Positions 1-8,903 of a stretch of DNA of 64,000 nt are shown one piece after another (the first letter of the stretch is position 1; the number at the start of each line of letters is the position of its first letter). The stretch spans positions 1 to 64,000 of the forward strand of contig NZ_FONL01000003.1 of NCBI RefSeq assembly GCF_900112895.1, given 5' to 3'. A program made the position numbers and the translations under genes. The notes under the pieces are model-generated. The model searched no databases, had not been told where the DNA came from, and saw only the letters and a list, made by a program, of their open reading frames with translations. The DNA comes from Succiniclasticum ruminis DSM 9236. Lineage in GTDB: Bacteria > Bacillota > Negativicutes > Acidaminococcales > Acidaminococcaceae.

Positions 1-3000
1 CATCCGCGCTGAAATTGTACTTCGTGTTTTTATAGTGCACGCCGCCGTTGTTCCACACGATTTCGCCGGCCAGCGCAGCCGTGCTTACGTTTTTCTCGCC
101 AACGGTGTATGTCAGTTTCGCTTTGGCAGCATCCAGGCTCAGTGTATCCGTATGCGTACCGGTAAAGGTAATGCCTTTATCCGCAATTGTGTCCGTAAAA
201 TCGTAGGTAAAACTTGTCTTCGTACCAGCGTCCAACGCTTTCAGCGATTCGCCCTTTGCGTTTTTAATCGCGCCCGTCGCATCCACAATCGTCATGGTGT
301 TGCCTGGTTCCATGGCGGTGCGGCTGTCTTTTGAGAATTTCAGACTGTCCGCATTGATCGTCGCGCCCGTTGCGTCATAAACGCCGGTCAGGGTTGCGGC
401 CGTGCCGCCGTCCGTGAAGGTCATTTCCCCAAGGGTAATGTTCTCCACGTTCTTCTTCATCGCAAAATAGGTCAGTGCAGCCCCGTTGTTTGTATCTTTG
501 ATGCCGCCCAGCTTATGACCCGTAACAGCAACGCCGTTCAGTTTTTCGTTGAAAGCGTCGCCGTTTCCGAATTTGTTGATGCCCTCAATCTTATCTGACG
601 AGAAATAACCGGCCGAAGCGGTCAGGATATCCCTTGATGTGCCAGCTTCCAGCTCAGGCAGGTTGTTTATGTTGTCCGTATAAACCGTGACCGCCGTCCC
701 GCTCTTCGCAGTCCAGCCGCTTGGAACCGCGGAAGAAGCAACACCGTCCCAACCTGCCAGTTCCACACTGTCCAGGGTCATGCTGCTGGCCGTATAATTA
801 ATCGCACCCGTCGTTTCCTCACTCGTTGTTGTCTCGCTTGTTACAGCTGCCCCCGCTACTGTGGCCACCGTACCCGTTAAAGTAGCCCTCAGAGCCACAC
901 CGTTAGGTGCGCTGTAACTAACTTCCTGCGCAACGCTTGTCTTGCCGGCACTGTAATTGACGGCCATCCCCGCCGGTAAACCCGTGGCGTTGGCAAACAG
1001 CGTCATGGTACTGCCGGAGGCAAGGGAAGCCTTCTGGCTTTCCTCTGCAAACGTAAAACTGAGTTTTTCCGCGCTGATGGATGTGTTATCGTTAAACCGG
1101 TCCGAAGCCGCTGCCTCATAATATGCGGACCCTGTATTCCAGGGAACAGTGCTGAACGCGATGTCCTTATACGTATTATGGGCATCGTAGGTCAGGGCTT
1201 TCTGGTCCGCCGCCAGTGAAACAGAAAGACTGTCAAAGGTTGCATCGATGCCGGCTTTTGGCTGCGCCTGTTTAACATTCGTATCTACCGTGCTGCCCGC
1301 TGTCAGGGACTTGCCATTCACGGTTTTTGCCGAAACAGTCCCCCCCGCGCTGATCAGGGAGCCGTTTGTATTCTGCGCCGGATTGAAGTCGCTCACGTTA
1401 AGGTCGGTGACATTGACATCGCCAACAGCGGACACGGCCGCCCCGCTGGCAGGAACCGCCGACAGAGCCAGCGTTCCCGCCGTAAGATTTCCACCGGCAG
1501 AGATAGTGTCCCCGGCAGACATAGCGTCCGCGCTGATGTTGGCGCTTGCGCTGATACTGCCGTCGGCGATAACATTGGCTGCGGTAATGCTCCCGGCTGC
1601 AATCGCACCGCCGGCGGAAATATTAGTTGCACTTACGACCTGTCCGTCCGCGTTGATATTTTTACCTGCAGAAAGGTTCAGTTCTTTATCTGAGGGATGC
1701 GTTGCGCCGGCGCCCACCGTGAGGGTCCCTCCTGCGCATACATCGCCGTAAGCATTCGTCAGCGCATGACGGATAGCGATATCCCCGGCAGCCTGAAGAA
1801 CGCCGCCGCTCATGGAAACCTCCCCGCCGTTTTCCGTGCTGATATTCGCTGCGGAAAACGTTCCGCCGCCGCTGACGGTAAGTGAACTGCCGCTGGTCTG
1901 GACCGTCACGGCGCCCCCGGCGATTAGCGTACCGCCGGAATTCACCGTGATGCCGCCGCTGCTGTTGATTTGAAAACCGTTTTGCGTTTCCAGCGTGCCG
2001 CCGGAGACTGTAAACGAAGAAAAGTTATTGGTTCCGCCAAGGGGGATCTGCCCGCTGCCGCCGTCATAGACAACATTACCGTGGCCTCCTACCGTACCGG
2101 ATGCTATGGCCCCGCCTGCCATGGACAGTGTGCCTCCGTCAAGGTTGACGCCGTTTGCCCTGCCGCCACTCAGAACGAATTGCGTGCCACCGCCTGTCAC
2201 AGTGATATTATTCGCCGTGCCGCCGGAATTTACGTTTTGCACGCCTTTAAAGGTTTTGCCTTCCACAGAAATTTCTTTGAGTGTGCCGCCCGAAGCCGAG
2301 GCGCCCGCCTCAATGGTCTGTGTGCCTGCGAGGATACCGCCCTCCGTGGCACTCTGCGTGCCGCCTGACATAATTACAGCATTCAGGGAAACGCCTTTGT
2401 TCGTGATTGCCTGGATTCCTCCGCTGGTGACGGTTGTATCCCGCGCCATGCCGCCGGTGACGGTTTGGTTACCATACGCGGAAAAGATTGCGCCGACAAC
2501 GGTGCCGCCTTCAAAGACCTCCTGATAGCCACGAGTGTTGGTATTCACCCCGCTGAACGTGCCGCCGGAAGCCACACCGCCGCTGCTGACAATCTGCTTG
2601 CCTTTATTTTTCAGGGTCGTGTCCGTCGCTGTGCCGCCGCTCAGAACGGATTGCGTGCCGCCGTTGTCTATGGTCGTGCTTATGGCCATGCCACCGTAAT
2701 TGACATTTTGCACGCCGCCGCTGTTGACGGTGGTGTTTGACATCGCGCCGCCAGACAACACTTGCGCAGTGCCGCTGCTATTGACAGTGGTGCTGATGGC
2801 CGTGCCGCCGCCGGAAACGTACTGGACACCGCCTTCGTTGACAGTAGCTTGTATGGACTGGCCACGGCTTAAAACGTACTGCTTGCCGCCGCTTCCCACG
2901 GTGGTCTTTGACGTCGTGGCATATTCGGTCACTACTTCAGTACCACCCCGGTTGACTGTGGTGTCGGATACCACGCCGCCGGCCAATACCTGCATCGTGC

Positions 3001-3904
3001 CGCCGTCACCGACAGTGACGCTTATGGCAGTACCGCCGTTCCCCAGCTCCAGGATATGGCCGGAAAAAGTGGTACCGCTCTGGGTGGCTCCCACCACCAG
3101 CCGATGGATGCCCCCCGACGCGAAGGTAGCATTATCAATGATTGCCCCTTCGCCATTTTCCTCCAATACGCCGCCGCTCATGACGTGGGTATCCTTCGAT
3201 GTGCCACCGTTATAGACGATTTGCTTGCCGCCGCTCATCAGGGAGGAGACCGTGCCCGTGCCGCCGTCCCAGATGGTCTGCCCGCCGCTGCTGTTGAGGT
3301 TCGTGACCGTACCCGAGCCTCCGATTTCAACAATCTGCCAGCCGCCGCTGTTAAGGTTCGTGACCGTGCCTGAACCGCTGACGTACTGATTGCCGCCGTT
3401 CATGGTCACAATCGTGCCCGTACCGCCACTGTTGATGGTCTGATAGCCTTTGCTCATGGTCGAGATTGTGCCCGTGCCGCCGTCGTTGATCATCTGCGTG
3501 CCGTTCATGGTCTCGACCGTACCCGTACCGCCACTGTTGATGATCTGCGTGCCGCTCATGTTCTCGACCGTACCCGTACCGCCACTGTTGATGGTTTGCA
3601 TGTCATCTTCGGTCATCGTGCCGCCGTTCTCGGTCCAAGCGGCGCTTTTGATATCGCCGTAAGGTATGGTTTGCTCCGCCGCCTCTGCCGTCATTTCCGG
3701 CATCACCGCCTGCACCGCGTCAGCCAGCACGCCTGCGGCAGCTAACCGGGCGCCGCCCTGTACCGGCTCCATGTAGCCGCCTCGGGCAGACAGGTCCCTT
3801 GTCATGTTCACATAGGGAAGCACCATCGGCGCACCCACATTCAGTATGTTCACCACCGATACGGCTACCGCTATTTTTTTCTGCAGTTTCTTTTTCCGGC
3901 TCAT
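1..3904 (-). CDS. AIDA-type autotransporter adhesin, N-terminal part (runs off left edge)
   Basis: One uninterrupted minus-strand frame from ATG at 3904 to the left edge (1,300 complete codons, no stop; frame checked at several points). RBS-like GAGGGG lies about 10 bases upstream. Residues 1-30 form a basic then hydrophobic signal region (MSRKKKLQKKIAVAVSVV). From about residue 90 to 640 the protein is built of strand-loop-strand repeats: first 17-18 residue units of the type NSGGTGTVENMSGTQ, then classic AIDA units of about 20 residues (GG-A-STTVNSGGVQNV). About 720-830 has short ISAGG/ITA units, and 880-1300 has longer modules. The C-terminal beta-barrel would lie outside the window. Such repeats are the known substrate of Aah/TibC heptosyltransferases, and two family members lie at 5059-7477. 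Function inferred: surface adhesin or aggregation factor. Repeat identity is firm; the transport class depends on the unseen C-terminus. Confidence 0.88.
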   Translation of the reverse strand, partial: MSRKKKLQKKIAVAVSVVNILNVGAPMVLPYVNMTRDLSARGGYMEPVQGGARLAAAGVLADAVQAVMPEMTAEAAEQTIPYGDIKSAAWTENGGTMTEDDMQTINSGGTGTVENMSGTQIINSGGTGTVETMNGTQMINDGGTGTISTMSKGYQTINSGGTGTIVTMNGGNQYVSGSGTVTNLNSGGWQIVEIGGSGTVTNLNSSGGQTIWDGGTGTVSSLMSGGKQIVYNGGTSKDTHVMSGGVLEENGEGAIIDNATFASGGIHRLVVGATQSGTTFSGHILELGNGGTAISVTVGDGGTMQVLAGGVVSDTTVNRGGTEVVTEYATTSKTTVGSGGKQYVLSRGQSIQATVNEGGVQYVSGGGTAISTTVNSSGTAQVLSGGAMSNTTVNSGGVQNVNYGGMAISTTIDNGGTQSVLSGGTATDTTLKNKGKQIVSSGGVASGGTFSGVNTNTRGYQEVFEGGTVVGAIFSAYGNQTVTGGMARDTTVTSGGIQAITNKGVSLNAVIMSGGTQSATEGGILAGTQTIEAGASASGGTLKEISVEGKTFKGVQNVNSGGTANNITVTGGGTQFVLSGGRANGVNLDGGTLSMAGGAIASGTVGGHGNVVYDGGSGQIPLGGTNNFSSFTVSGGTLETQNGFQINSSGGITVNSGGTLIAGGAVTVQTSGSSLTVSGGGTFSAANISTENGGEVSMSGGVLQAAGDIAIRHALTNAYGDVCAGGTLTVGAGATHPSDKELNLSAGKNINADGQVVSATNISAGGAIAAGSITAANVIADGSISASANISADAMSAGDTISAGGNLTAGTLALSAVPASGAAVSAVGDVNVTDLNVSDFNPAQNTNGSLISAGGTVSAKTVNGKSLTAGSTVDTNVKQAQPKAGIDATFDSLSVSLAADQKALTYDAHNTYKDIAFSTVPWNTGSAYYEAAASDRFNDNTSISAEKLSFTFAEESQKASLASGSTMTLFANATGLPAGMAVNYSAGKTSVAQEVSYSAPNGVALRATLTGTVATVAGAAVTSETTTSEETTGAINYTASSMTLDSVELAGWDGVASSAVPSGWTAKSGTAVTVYTDNINNLPELEAGTSRDILTASAGYFSSDKIEGINKFGNGDAFNEKLNGVAVTGHKLGGIKDTNNGAALTYFAMKKNVENITLGEMTFTDGGTAATLTGVYDATGATINADSLKFSKDSRTAMEPGNTMTIVDATGAIKNAKGESLKALDAGTKTSFTYDFTDTIADKGITFTGTHTDTLSLDAAKAKLTYTVGEKNVSTAALAGEIVWNNGGVHYKNTKYNFSAD
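3000..3620 (-). repeat. Tandem 51-54 bp coding repeats in adhesin passenger
   Basis: The start of the passenger has consecutive 17-18 codon units (NSGGTGTVETMNGTQMI and variants). The units between about 3420 and 3600 are nearly identical at DNA level, sharing the block accgtacccgtaccgccact. They grade into more diverged units towards 3000. Similar DNA copies in direct orientation could recombine and change repeat number; that is inference. Confidence 0.75.
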
Positions 3905-3987
3905 GATTATATTACCCCTCTGTTCAAAACATTACGGACTGCCGCGCCGGACGGCGCTGCCGCCGTGCGGGACAGGTTACACATTGA

Positions 3988-4797
3988 TCATTCGATTTCT
4001 TCGAAGCCTTCGAACCTGAAAGGAGCGTTTTTTGGCTTGCAGAGAACATTATAGGAAACAACCTGCAGGGCAAGCTTTCTTCCGTCTTCCAGTATCTTAT
4101 CTACCTTAAATACGTTTTCAGGATTGTGAAAATAATTGTCCGGATTATAAAGAGGCGGCTCGTGCCTGTACAGGCGGTAGCCATGGGAACGGAGATACGC
4201 GAACAGCGCGTCTTTCTTATCTTCACGGTCTGCCTCGGCATAAATAACCGGCTGATACTTCCGGATCGTTTCTTCTGCGCCCTGCAGGACCTGAAGCTCC
4301 ATGCCTTCCACGTCGATTTTCAGGAAGTCGCAGCCCGGAAGGTCAAGGGAATCAATGGTGATGGCCTCCACCGGTTCTCCCTCAGCGGAGTGTTCAAGTT
4401 CCACTCCGCCCCAGTTGTTAATCCGGTTCACATCAAGCACGGGAACCGGGATTGTGCGCTTACCGCTCCCTATAAGGCATTTCTGCAGGCAATGGACGTT
4501 CGTGAGGCTGTTAAGCGCAACGTTTCCGGCAAGGAGCTGAAAGACGAGCCGTTGCGGCTCAAACGCCCAAACCTGTCCCTGATCGCCTGCAAGCTGCGCC
4601 AGATGGATTGTATGGGAGCCGATATTGGCGCCTGCTTCAACCACGATATGGCCCGGCTTGACGATTTGCTCGAAAATATCCGCTTCGCCCTGGCTGTATT
4701 CCCCGTAAAGCCGTAACGACCTCCCGATAAATTGATCCAGCTGGTTGTACATGATTTTGCCGTAACGGAAATCATGGCAAAGATTAACAGGCCACAT
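3988..4797 (-). CDS. FkbM family SAM-dependent methyltransferase
   Basis: 269 aa from the Met at 4797, preferred over the upstream ATG at 4827 because GGGGGA lies 6-7 bases ahead of it. The SAM-binding motif I is visible (VVEAGANIGSHTI), followed by an acidic FEPQ after strand 2 and the Methyltransf_21 signature FLKIDVEGMELQVLQGA. FkbM enzymes O-methylate hydroxyls, often of sugars or polyketides. It lies 83 bp downstream of the autotransporter start but on the same strand, so it is transcribed toward the adhesin gene, and it is divergent from the heptosyltransferases. Inference: it may methylate the sugar placed on the adhesin, or an unrelated glycan. Family call is strong; substrate unknown. 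Confidence 0.85.
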   Translation of the reverse strand: MWPVNLCHDFRYGKIMYNQLDQFIGRSLRLYGEYSQGEADIFEQIVKPGHIVVEAGANIGSHTIHLAQLAGDQGQVWAFEPQRLVFQLLAGNVALNSLTNVHCLQKCLIGSGKRTIPVPVLDVNRINNWGGVELEHSAEGEPVEAITIDSLDLPGCDFLKIDVEGMELQVLQGAEETIRKYQPVIYAEADREDKKDALFAYLRSHGYRLYRHEPPLYNPDNYFHNPENVFKVDKILEDGRKLALQVVSYNVLCKPKNAPFRFEGFEEIE

Positions 4798-4827
4798 AAG
4801 GTTTCCCCCAAGTATATGATACTCCAA

Positions 4828-5058
4828 ATATATGATATGTGTTTAATTATTATCCAACCATATTATATAGCAAAATCGGTCGCTTATCAATAAAAATAAG
4901 ACAAAGCCTGCATATTATACAAGCTGTGCCCGGATGCTGTACTACCGGCCGAGTCCGTGCTGTCGTCAGCATTTATAACAGACCGCCGGCCGGAACGCCC
5001 TCTTGCATTTTTCCGGTGTTTTCGTTAAATTAGTAAGTAGGAAACGGAGGTTTCATTT
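4828..5058 (+). promoter_or_regulatory. Divergent intergenic region with candidate promoter for the heptosyltransferase pair
   Basis: This 231 bp region separates the leftward methyltransferase/adhesin genes from the rightward heptosyltransferases. A candidate rightward promoter is TTGCAT (5003-5008), 16 bp, TTAAAT (5025-5030). A good RBS (ACGGAGG) precedes the ATG at 5059. The AT-rich stretch 4840-4910 may carry the leftward promoter, but no clear boxes were identified. Confidence 0.4.
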
Positions 5059-6285
5059 ATGGCGGAGGGGAAGAGAAAAACATACGTGAGTTTTGACGCA
5101 GGGCCGGTGACGCTGGACAGCGGCCTGGCGGGCGTGAAGCTTGATTTCAATTACGGGGCGAGGGTACTGCTGCCAGACGATGGGGAATACCGGGTCCGCT
5201 TTACGGATCTGGACACCAGCTCCATCCTGTACGATGCAGTGGGGCGCAACGCCCTTGTCACCAGTACAAAAAAATATTACATCAATTTCCGGGTGGAAAT
5301 CTGGAAGGATGGCGTTCCTGCGCTGGTCCACGACCTTGACCTGGCGGGCCGCAACGTGCATATCCGTTACCCCGTGGGTACGCTGGGGGACATCCTGGCC
5401 TGGTTCCCCTATGCGGAGGAATTCCGCAAAAAGCACCGGTGCAATGTTTATTGCTCTATGAGTCCGGAGATTGCCGGTCTTTTTGCTCCCGCTTACCCCC
5501 GGATCCGGTTTATCGAACCCGGCACGACACCGCCGGACTGCTATGCCACCTATTATATGGGCATCTTCTTTCCGGCGGACGACCGCTTCCACCAGCCGGC
5601 TGATTTCCGCGTGACCGGGCTGCAACTCAACATACCCTACATTCTGGGGCTGGACGTGGTGGAGCGGCGGCCTGTGCTGACACCGTCAAAAAAACGGCCT
5701 GTCAAAGAGCCGTATGTCTGTATTGCAACCCAGGCTACCAGCCAGGCCAAATACTGGAACAACCCCCGGGGCTGGATTGAGACGGTGGATTATCTGAAGG
5801 CGTTGGGCTACCGGGTTCTGTGTATTGATAAGGAGAAATGCCACGGCTACGGGCGGCACTGGCACACCATCCCCTACGGGGCTGAGGATTTCACGGGAGA
5901 CCGGCCCCTGCAGGAGCGGGTGGATTATCTGGGGCATGCGGATTTCTTCATCGGTCTGTCCAGCGGACTGTCCTGGCTGGCCTGGGGCGCGGGCGCGCCG
6001 GTAATCATGATTTCCGGTTTTACCCTGCCTTATAATGAGTTTTTTACCCCCTACCGGGTCATCAATTTCCACGTATGCAACGGTTGCTGGACGGACAGCA
6101 GCGAGGAATTCGTCCACGCGGACTTCGGCTGGTGCCCCCGCCATGCGGGAACGGAGCGGGAGTTCGAGTGCAGCCGATTCATCAGCTCGGGTCAGGTCTG
6201 CCAGACCGTGCAGCGGCTGATGGCGGACTACAACCTGCATCCGGAACAGGGAAAGGTAAGAAGGAGAAAAGCAAATGGAAAATAA
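5059..6285 (+). CDS. Autotransporter strand-loop-strand O-heptosyltransferase, copy 1 (TibC/Aah family)
   Basis: 408 aa. The layout matches the bacterial autotransporter heptosyltransferase family: an N-terminal beta domain (1-100), then a GT-B-like catalytic part. GTLGD with Asp111 and SQAKYWN with Lys231 match the positions of the Asp and Lys reported as essential in E. coli TibC. PYGAEDFTGDRPLQERVD and GLSSGLSWLAWG form the nucleotide-sugar side. The C-terminal finger has Cys340, Cys343, Cys359 and Cys371 (CxxC-x15-C-x11-C), as in the iron-binding finger of TibC. Known family role: transfer of heptose from ADP-heptose to serines in autotransporter repeats, in the cytoplasm, by dodecameric rings. 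The likely substrate is the divergent adhesin at 1-3904. Overlaps copy 2 by 11 bp, so they are co-translated. Confidence 0.88.
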   Translation: MAEGKRKTYVSFDAGPVTLDSGLAGVKLDFNYGARVLLPDDGEYRVRFTDLDTSSILYDAVGRNALVTSTKKYYINFRVEIWKDGVPALVHDLDLAGRNVHIRYPVGTLGDILAWFPYAEEFRKKHRCNVYCSMSPEIAGLFAPAYPRIRFIEPGTTPPDCYATYYMGIFFPADDRFHQPADFRVTGLQLNIPYILGLDVVERRPVLTPSKKRPVKEPYVCIATQATSQAKYWNNPRGWIETVDYLKALGYRVLCIDKEKCHGYGRHWHTIPYGAEDFTGDRPLQERVDYLGHADFFIGLSSGLSWLAWGAGAPVIMISGFTLPYNEFFTPYRVINFHVCNGCWTDSSEEFVHADFGWCPRHAGTEREFECSRFISSGQVCQTVQRLMADYNLHPEQGKVRRRKANGK

Positions 6286-7477
6286 CGCCGTGGGAAAAGA
6301 ACCTTATATGGTGTTCGACCCGCCTGTCGAGCCCACCCAGGAAACGGATGTGCCAGGGCTGCGGTTCGATTTTAATAACGGCCTCAGGGTGTCAGTGCCG
6401 GAGGGAGATTACCGGGTGCGGTTCATTGACCGTGACAGTCATCTTACGGTGTACGACGCAAAGGCTTCCAACGTAATGGCTACCAGTACGAAGCGGTATT
6501 TTGTGAATTTCCGTCTGGAGGTCTATACAACCCGGCCGGAAGAAACTCTCCTGTTTGCCCACGACTACGACGCCAAAGGCAAAAAGGTGCTGCTGAAATT
6601 TGCAGGGGCGGCCCTGGGGGACATGCTGGCCTGGTTTCCCTGTGCGGAAGATTTCAGGGAAAAGCACGGCAGCGAGCTTTATGTGCTGACGGATAAGCGC
6701 TATTGTGAAATTTTGCAGGCGGGCTATCCGGACATTCACTTTCTGACGCCGGAGGATCCGCGCCCCTCCGATCTCTACGCAACCTATTACGTGGGGCTGT
6801 TCGCCCCCTGGGAAGACCGGAACCTGCAGCCGGTGGACTGGCGGGTGATGGGACTGCAGGCCCACGGGGCGTATCTGCTGGGTTTGGAACCGGCGGAACG
6901 ACGGCCGCGGCTTCTGCCTTCAGCGAAGGCTTCGGAGATCCGTCCCAAAGAACCGTATGTGTGTATTGCCACCCAGGCCACGGCCCAGTGCAAATACTGG
7001 AACAACGCCCGGGGCTGGATGGACACGGTTGCCTATTTGAAGGAACTTGGCTACCGGGTACTCTGTGTGGACCGGGAACGGGTGACGGTGAACGGAGTTT
7101 TCGGTAATACGATTCCCTACGGCGCGGAAGATTTCACCGGGGACCGTTCCCTGCAGGAGCGGGTAGACCTGATCTCCGGGGCGGCATTCTTTGTGGGCCT
7201 GGCCAGCGGCCTTTCCTGGCTGGCCTGGGGCGCGGGCGTCCCTGTGGTGATGATTGTGGGCTTCACCGCGCCGGGAACGGAGTTCCACACGCCCTACCGG
7301 GTGCAGCAGTTCCACACCTGTCACAGCTGTGCCAATGACCAGCGTTACGAACACAAATATGACGATTTCGGCAGTTGCCCGCGCCACCGCGGCACCGATC
7401 AGGAATTTGAATGTACCCGCTGCATTACATCTGAGTATGTGCGGGACATGATTGACAGGGTGAGGGGCGGGTCTTAA
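6275..7477 (+). CDS. Autotransporter strand-loop-strand O-heptosyltransferase, copy 2 (TibC/Aah family)
   Basis: 400 aa, clearly homologous to the preceding gene along its whole length but well diverged. The key positions are kept: GAALGD with Asp116, AQCKYWN with Lys240, PYGAEDFTGDRSLQERVD, GLASGLSWLAWGAG, and the finger cysteines Cys349, Cys352, Cys368 and Cys380 with the same spacing; Cys383 is extra. AAGGAG lies 8 bases before the ATG, inside the end of copy 1. Two intact paralogs suggest a hetero-oligomer or different acceptor or donor preferences; this is inference. The alternative is a recent but non-redundant duplication serving another adhesin. No obvious terminator follows before the next promoter at 7493. 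Confidence 0.87.
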   Translation: MENNAVGKEPYMVFDPPVEPTQETDVPGLRFDFNNGLRVSVPEGDYRVRFIDRDSHLTVYDAKASNVMATSTKRYFVNFRLEVYTTRPEETLLFAHDYDAKGKKVLLKFAGAALGDMLAWFPCAEDFREKHGSELYVLTDKRYCEILQAGYPDIHFLTPEDPRPSDLYATYYVGLFAPWEDRNLQPVDWRVMGLQAHGAYLLGLEPAERRPRLLPSAKASEIRPKEPYVCIATQATAQCKYWNNARGWMDTVAYLKELGYRVLCVDRERVTVNGVFGNTIPYGAEDFTGDRSLQERVDLISGAAFFVGLASGLSWLAWGAGVPVVMIVGFTAPGTEFHTPYRVQQFHTCHSCANDQRYEHKYDDFGSCPRHRGTDQEFECTRCITSEYVRDMIDRVRGGS

Positions 7478-7492
7478 AATGTTTCAGATTCG

Positions 7493-7522
7493 TTGACAAG
7501 TTCCGATTATAAAGGATATAAT
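7493..7522 (+). promoter_or_regulatory. Sigma-70-type promoter of the ZTP riboswitch-purH transcript
   Basis: TTGACA (7493-7498), 18 bp spacer, TATAAT (7517-7522). Both hexamers match consensus perfectly. Transcription would start near 7530, just ahead of the riboswitch. Confidence 0.85.
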
Positions 7523-7727: not shown

Positions 7728-8903
7728 ATGAATGAAATGGCGCTGAAGTATGGCTGCAACCCCAATCAGAAAATCGCGAAAGTGTATATGAAAGACGGAA
7801 AGGATCTGCCTTTTACCGTACTGAACGGCCGGCCCGGCTTTATCAACCTGCTGGATGCCTTTAACAGCTGGCAGCTGGTAAAAGAATTAAAAGAAGCTAC
7901 CGGTTTGCCGGCAGCGGCGTCCTTTAAACATGTAAGCCCGGCAGGCGCGGCGGTTGCCACGGAGCTGAGCGATACGCTGAAGAAAATTTATTTTGTAGAC
8001 GACCTTGAACTGACACCCATTGCTTCCGCCTATGCCGCAGCCCGGGGCGCGGACCGCATGTCTTCCTACGGTGACTTTGCCGCCCTGTCCGATATCTGTG
8101 ACAAGGAAACGGCGCTGCTGCTGAAACGGGAAGTGTCCGACGGCGTCATTGCTCCCGGTTATACGGAAGAGGCCCTGGAGATCCTGAAAAGCAAACGGAA
8201 AGGTACCTACCTTGTGATGCAGATGGATCCGGACTACGTGCCGGAGGAGCAGGAGACCAAGCAGGTCTTCGGCATTTCCTTTGAGCAGAGCCGCAACAAC
8301 GCGAAGATCACAGCGGACCTGCTGGCAGAACGTCCCACGAAGAACAAAGATATTCCCGACGCAGCTGTCCGTGACCTTCTGGTATCGCTGATTACGCTGA
8401 AATACACCCAGTCCAATTCGGTCTGCTATGTAAAAGACGGCATGACCATCGGCGTGGGCGCAGGACAGCAGTCCCGCATCCACTGCACCCGTCTGGCAGG
8501 CAACAAGGCAGACATCTGGTGGCAGCGGCAGAACCCGAAAGTCATGGCCCTGCCTTTCAAAGCGGATATCCGCCGCCCGGACCGGGACAACACCATCGAC
8601 GTATATATTTCCGATGACTATGAAGACGTGCTGGCGGAGGGCACCTGGCAGCTGTTCTTTACGGAAAAACCGGAACCGCTGACCAAAGAAGAAAAGAAAG
8701 CCTGGGCGGCGAAGCTCACCGGCGTGGCATTAGGCAGCGACGCCTTCTTCCCTTTCGGCGACAACATCGAACGGGCCCACCGCAGCGGCGTGCAGTACGT
8801 GGCCGAAGCCGGCGGCTCCATCCGGGACGACCATGTGATCGAAACGGCGGATAAATACAACATGGCAGTTTCCTTTACGCATCTGCGGTTGTTCCATCAT
8901 TGA
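7728..8903 (+). CDS. purH: Stand-alone AICAR formyltransferase (PurH transformylase domain only)
   Basis: 391 aa; start supported by AAGGAGG 10 bases upstream. It aligns by eye with the AICAR transformylase part of PurH: YGCNPNQK at the N-terminus, AASFKHVSPAGAA (with the Lys-His typical of the active site), YTQSNSVCY, GVGAGQQSR, and the terminal GSDAFFPFGDNIERA and RLFHH. It converts AICAR plus 10-formyl-THF to FAICAR in purine synthesis. Bifunctional PurH is about 510-530 aa; the IMP cyclohydrolase domain (about 120-190 aa) is absent, so the cyclohydrolase must be encoded elsewhere. Controlled by the ZTP riboswitch at 7531. The end reads SFTHLRLFHH, slightly unusual but compatible. Confidence 0.9.
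   Translation: MNEMALKYGCNPNQKIAKVYMKDGKDLPFTVLNGRPGFINLLDAFNSWQLVKELKEATGLPAAASFKHVSPAGAAVATELSDTLKKIYFVDDLELTPIASAYAAARGADRMSSYGDFAALSDICDKETALLLKREVSDGVIAPGYTEEALEILKSKRKGTYLVMQMDPDYVPEEQETKQVFGISFEQSRNNAKITADLLAERPTKNKDIPDAAVRDLLVSLITLKYTQSNSVCYVKDGMTIGVGAGQQSRIHCTRLAGNKADIWWQRQNPKVMALPFKADIRRPDRDNTIDVYISDDYEDVLAEGTWQLFFTEKPEPLTKEEKKAWAAKLTGVALGSDAFFPFGDNIERAHRSGVQYVAEAGGSIRDDHVIETADKYNMAVSFTHLRLFHH

Follow-up and report, generated by a model that had tools for sequence, protein, structure and literature searches.

The window, i.e., the whole stretch of 64,000 nucleotides that was analyzed, starts with base 1 of contig C14 in a 2.54-Mb genome, and its left edge is the edge of that contig. 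An autotransporter adhesin gene (the passenger), truncated at the edge, lies here next to a gene for an FkbM-family methyltransferase and two genes, E1 and E2, for bacterial autotransporter heptosyltransferases (BAHTs). The following features were assigned:

2-3904, minus strand: passenger, first 1301 aa (ten TIGR04415 and seven PF16168 stretches; truncated at the contig edge)
1985-3727, minus strand: strand-loop-strand repeat stretch, predicted heptose acceptor region (beta-helix model, pTM 0.72)
3988-4797, minus strand: FkbM-family SAM methyltransferase (PF05050, 77 bits; TIGR01444, 90 bits)
4862-4890, minus strand: putative promoter-like site TTGATA-17-TATAAT on the FkbM and passenger side (11/12 in a consensus scan)
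5046-5050, plus strand: GGAGG ribosome-binding site of E1
5059-6285, plus strand: E1, BAHT (autotransporter O-heptosyltransferase), putative ancestral-type subunit (TIGR04414, 541.9 bits)
6275-7477, plus strand: E2, second BAHT, of a separate, apparently derived orthologous clade (TIGR04414, 473.7 bits)

E1 and E2 are read from the plus strand, and FkbM and the passenger from the minus strand, with divergence from about 4800-5058. An earlier note on this DNA, made from the sequence alone, had described this head-to-head orientation and had placed the host among the Negativicutes; both statements were correct, the host being most likely a Succiniclasticum (Acidaminococcaceae). The coding regions of E1 and E2 overlap by 11 nt (6275-6285), and FkbM lies upstream of the passenger on the same strand, with 83 nt between the two genes. 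The likely start of FkbM is the ATG at 4797, which matches its relatives; a TTG at 4827 is possible. The G+C content of E1 and E2 is 58%, versus 50% in the rest of the window. The records that carry close relatives of E1 (96-99% identity) bear the names Succiniclasticum, Acidaminococcaceae or Selenomonadales, and most of them are MAGs from the rumen or the ruminant gut. A perfect (12/12) sigma-70 type consensus promoter is present at 7493-7522, just 3′ of E2 and ahead of the gene at 7728.

The locus is a member of the known autotransporter-heptosyltransferase (BAHT) systems. Two of its features look like undescribed variants: the linked methyltransferase, and an obligate enzyme pair whose counterpart at a sister locus includes a member that appears catalytically dead. 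Searches of the open-access literature revealed no publication that deals with BAHT pairs, with FkbM in combination with BAHTs, or with the glycosylation of autotransporters in Succiniclasticum.

E1 and E2 retain the active site of TibC

A TIGR04414 search of the 5059-7477 region (curated cut-off, 200 bits) returned E1 and E2 at full length with 541.9 and 473.7 bits, which bears out the two TibC/Aah-type heptosyltransferases proposed earlier; the genome encodes no other full BAHT. Both proteins scored above cut-off for PF21129, the N-terminal domain of TibC, and for the GT9/GT-B catalytic domain (PF01075). A ring-shaped dodecamer is a listed trait of the BAHT (TibC) family. Both enzymes aligned nearly end-to-end with TibC of known structure (E values of 1.9e-124 for E1 and 3.1e-107 for E2). 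In TibC, D110 is the catalytic base, T226, K230, R286 and W305 bind the donor, and a four-cysteine iron finger recognizes the beta-helix protein (PMC4358343). All five residues (TibC numbering) and the four cysteines are present in E1 and E2. The dN/dS values of E1 and E2 (0.07-0.09) and of FkbM (0.04) indicate purifying selection, and hence the three genes are not chance ORFs.

Donor stereoselectivity is set at position 300, which is a Pro in TibC and a Ser in Aah (PMC4358343). The TibC Pro is replaced by Ser in E1, as in Aah, and by Ala in E2. This position varies among E2s (Ala, Pro, Ser or Thr, with Pro in the Anaerovibrio E2), and a strict split of donor stereochemistry between E1 and E2 was therefore rejected as a rule. 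Thumb-tip hydrophobicity was also dropped as a trait that sets E1 apart from E2, because single-enzyme homologues likewise lack the Phe-Val pair of TibC.

The passenger and the source of the donor sugar

The giant strand-loop-strand passenger of the earlier note was confirmed by the ten TIGR04415 and seven AIDA (PF16168) stretches, and in a profile search TIGR04415 repeats were restricted in this genome to the passenger. When the repeat region was modeled with AlphaFold (pTM 0.72), the top PDB match was 4Q1Q, the heptosylated (TibC-glycosylated) TibA fragment, with a TM score of 0.84 on the target and 35% identity, and the next match was Ag43. By its repeats and modeled fold, the passenger is of the AIDA/TibA-like self-associating autotransporter type. 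Its repeat array is longer than in two sister species.

The predicted C-terminus of the passenger (last 596 aa, barrel included) was located on another contig of the same genome (G000:C27:3-1790). This stretch shares 70% identity with the terminal part of L078, a sister passenger; the three genes after it are collinear with the genes that follow the intact L058 passenger and are 97-99% identical to them. Synteny with Succiniclasticum relatives thus supports the view that the C14 and C27 halves are probably one passenger. The final residues before the C14 edge are present twice within the sister passenger, and this repetition accounts for the assembly break. A Pfam search of the C27 passenger end gave no match, PF03797 included; the barrel call is therefore based on homology, an AlphaFold model and Foldseek. 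The homologous barrel of L077 (pTM 0.72) was modeled as an N-terminal helix followed by about 12 long strands, and it matched the EspP, Hbp, BrkA and AIDA-I translocators. By way of the C27 stretch and this homologue, the passenger has a predicted C-terminal 12-strand translocator barrel. The earlier note had expected a barrel beyond the left edge; the barrel was found, but the edge itself is the end of the contig.

The genome also carries a second autotransporter family on contigs C9, C15, C18 and C23 (L023, L024, L021 and L022, respectively); several contigs of this family end within near-identical barrels, which suggests recent duplicates. On contig C34, a 2495-aa autotransporter without TIGR04415 repeats (L025:2060-9547) has an end that is 57% identical to the sister passenger end.

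A check for ADP-heptose genes, proposed earlier, found gmhA, hldE, hldD and a gmhB-like phosphatase (score just below its own cut-off) in one operon near 200 kb on contig C27, together with two LPS-type heptosyltransferases. Since hldD is present, both ADP-heptose epimers can be made. The claim that the locus is self-contained did not hold, because the donor sugar is provided by this LPS-core operon on another contig.

E1 and E2 form separate clades that are always paired

In a tree of 120 BAHTs, E1 and E2 fell into separate clades of 18 rows (support 92) and 16 rows (support 100), respectively. An E1-clade gene lies directly upstream of an E2-clade gene in 16/16 non-redundant pairs from two families; the pairs were found in Succiniclasticum, two more Acidaminococcaceae genera, Anaerovibrio and other Selenomonadaceae, and in many of them the coding regions overlap. 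An intact E2 neighbor is missing from just two E1-clade rows, L071 and L095, both of which are E1/E2 chimeras: each is a single BAHT gene (L071:8194-9372 and L095:7491-9206) whose N-terminal part resembles E1 and whose C-terminal part resembles E2, and the breakpoints of the two differ. The L071 hybrid could be an assembly artefact, yet there is a second hybrid with another breakpoint in L095. The passenger of L071 is reduced to a 405-aa remnant that retains the barrel.

At 12 positions, four of them within or beside the iron finger, E2 alone departs from the residue common to E1 and the single-enzyme BAHTs, whereas E1 alone departs at one; thus, E2 looks like the derived partner. The identity of E1 is 81-83% to Selenomonadaceae versus 73-78% to other Acidaminococcaceae genera. 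Horizontal transfer among rumen Negativicutes is likely, and the constant pairing could result from the transfer of a two-gene block.

The presence of more than one enzyme, pointed out in the earlier note, was rejected as a special feature of this locus: the BAHT family is present in 116 of 380 Negativicutes genomes, and tandem copies are frequent. A separate tandem pair is found in the Sporomusaceae-like genomes L099, L100 and L187, and arrays of at least three BAHTs in Selenomonadaceae. In one Selenomonadaceae genus, at least three consecutive BAHT-family genes were observed (L204:6129-12886, L200, L202, L203 and L206), and two copies of the L204 array are broken. A degraded BAHT with in-frame stops is present in another Acidaminococcaceae genome (G042; L074:9723-10517 and neighboring bases).

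A sister E2 has lost catalytic residues

Two sister genomes carry a second BAHT pair, E1′/E2′ (L059:1919-3214, minus strand; L061:1572-2867, plus strand), which adjoins a different autotransporter. In E2′, D110 is replaced by Asn, and T226 and K230 by Gly, and hence E2′ was not classed as an active BAHT; R286, W305, all four iron-finger cysteines and an open frame are retained. In TibC, replacement of D110 or K230 by alanine eliminated the activity or lowered it strongly (PMC4358343). Every other full-length BAHT compared keeps D110, K230, R286, W305 and the four cysteines. Between the two species, the E2′ sample (two MAGs only) showed 12 synonymous and 9 nonsynonymous changes, with a dN/dS of 0.23 and neutrality rejected (p = 0.001), which indicates purifying selection on E2′ as well.

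In TibC, one passenger contacts both protomers of a back-to-back dimer, and one of them is productive at a time. The simplest reading of E2′ and the TibC dimer suggests a ring built from two kinds of subunit, E2 being the one that holds the passenger. Such a mixed TibC-like ring, in which an E1-E2 back-to-back pair would grip each passenger, is put forward tentatively, at somewhat short of even odds. The complete active site of E2 in the window argues against it, because a non-catalytic role is not needed there. That no mixed E1-E2 complex forms is plausible, if on the whole improbable. It would fit the complete active sites of both window enzymes, the Ser of E1 versus the Ala of E2 (Pro in the Anaerovibrio E2) at the stereoselectivity position of TibC and Aah (PMC4358343), the two epimers that hldD makes possible, and the Selenomonadaceae arrays of several intact BAHTs; however, it leaves no place for a dead E2′ kept under selection, and the residue at position 300 is inconsistent across E2s. 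The mixed ring, if it exists, would explain the role of the second protomer in the TibC back-to-back dimer, which the TibC-TibA structure left open, and would make available a natural catalytically dead subunit for testing that role.

FkbM is associated with BAHT genes

The gene beside the passenger had been recognized correctly as an FkbM methyltransferase, with both PF05050 and TIGR01444 above cut-off. When 380 Negativicutes genomes were searched for its subfamily (E at most 1e-40), it was found in 24, and 22 of these have a full BAHT, versus 116/380 overall (hypergeometric p = 1.6e-10, with the kinship of the genomes ignored). In a Selenomonadaceae-like family (f20), 15 of the 16 genomes with FkbM have a BAHT, versus an estimated background of roughly half. 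Within the genus, FkbM is present in 5/6 BAHT genomes versus 0/8 others (p = 0.003), and in the sixth BAHT genome a contig ends at that place. FkbM adjoins BAHT genes in different gene orders in Succiniclasticum, L065, L096, L245, L249, L250 and L251; in the immediate neighborhood of the Anaerovibrio E1/E2 pairs it is absent. Frequently, FkbM is not adjacent to a BAHT gene; this holds for many copies in Selenomonadaceae, some of which have other gene neighbors, e.g., a histidine operon.

These distant copies would be expected if FkbM were unrelated to the adhesin and acted on LPS or another glycan, its position beside the passenger being incidental, and so would the frameshifted FkbM of one sister genome (L058:11744-12487), which is either a real loss or a sequencing error. 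Such a role is unlikely, given the BAHT in 22 of the 24 genomes with the subfamily and the recurrent adjacency in different gene orders. Methylation of the heptose by FkbM is the reading that we favor, by a modest degree.

Proposed mechanism and comparison with known systems

We assign a probability of roughly 0.75 to the explanation as a whole, i.e., a BAHT-type glycosylated-adhesin locus in which E1 and E2 work as one unit and FkbM methylates heptose. The LPS-core operon of the cell would supply ADP-heptose as the sugar donor. In the cytoplasm, E1 and E2 would modify Ser/Thr residues in the beta-helix repeats with O-linked heptose. Once the glycosylated passenger has crossed the inner membrane, its C-terminal beta-barrel would bring it to the cell surface. 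FkbM would O-methylate the attached heptose. The sugar is very probably heptose; both this sugar and its methylation are favored by the presence of the donor pathway, by active sites that are intact and by the conserved link between FkbM and BAHTs. Family membership, active sites, donor pathway, barrel and constant clade pairing rest on sequence, prediction or phylogeny. The earlier interpretation is partly supported, and the observation underlying it is confirmed.

A locus that combines two transferases with a methyltransferase has a layout known from glycan-building clusters, and E2 retains the ADP-heptose-binding residues. It is nevertheless very improbable that E2 extends the glycan by attaching a further sugar to the heptose on the protein, with FkbM as the capping enzyme: the TibC layout is complete in E2, down to the iron finger, which recognizes the beta-helix protein in TibC (PMC4358343), and a catalytically dead E2′ would be purposeless.

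With TibA/TibC of enterotoxigenic E. coli (PMC4358343; 4RAP, 4RB4 and 4Q1Q), the locus shares the enzyme family, domain layout, catalytic residues, four-cysteine iron finger, beta-helix acceptor fold, translocator barrel and dependence on ADP-heptose from the LPS pathway. However, E. coli has a single enzyme, whereas here two orthologous clades are always paired and FkbM is added. AIDA-I/Aah of diffusely adhering E. coli likewise combines a strand-loop-strand passenger with an adjacent heptosyltransferase, but it has one enzyme instead of an E1/E2 pair plus FkbM, and here the genes are divergently oriented and the passenger operon begins with FkbM. The Veillonella parvula adhesins are also autotransporter adhesins of a Negativicute; the paper describing them mentions neither glycosylation nor heptosyltransferases (PMC7549365).

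The proposed mechanism, if true, would mean that protein O-heptosylation occurs not just in E. coli pathogens but also in rumen commensal diderm Firmicutes, and would add a likely second modification, O-methyl heptose. A broader scheme for rumen Negativicutes, with an obligate two-subunit E1/E2 ring whose derived partner, E2, grips or orients the beta-helix and is able to dispense with catalysis, a dedicated FkbM that caps the heptose, and an FkbM-BAHT module that also acts on flagellins, is speculative and rather unlikely to hold in full. Flagellin genes are close to both FkbM and BAHT genes in the f20 genomes L245 and L249, and therefore different proteins are likely to receive the same modification. 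In Selenomonadaceae, this proximity of flagellin genes to BAHT-family genes and to FkbM suggests glycosylation of flagellin by distant BAHTs, and a substrate range of the family that goes beyond autotransporters. BAHT-family genes near flagellin or flagellar rod genes were observed in Selenomonadaceae at L245:1448-6782, L249:6036-13998 and L203:5041-13212.
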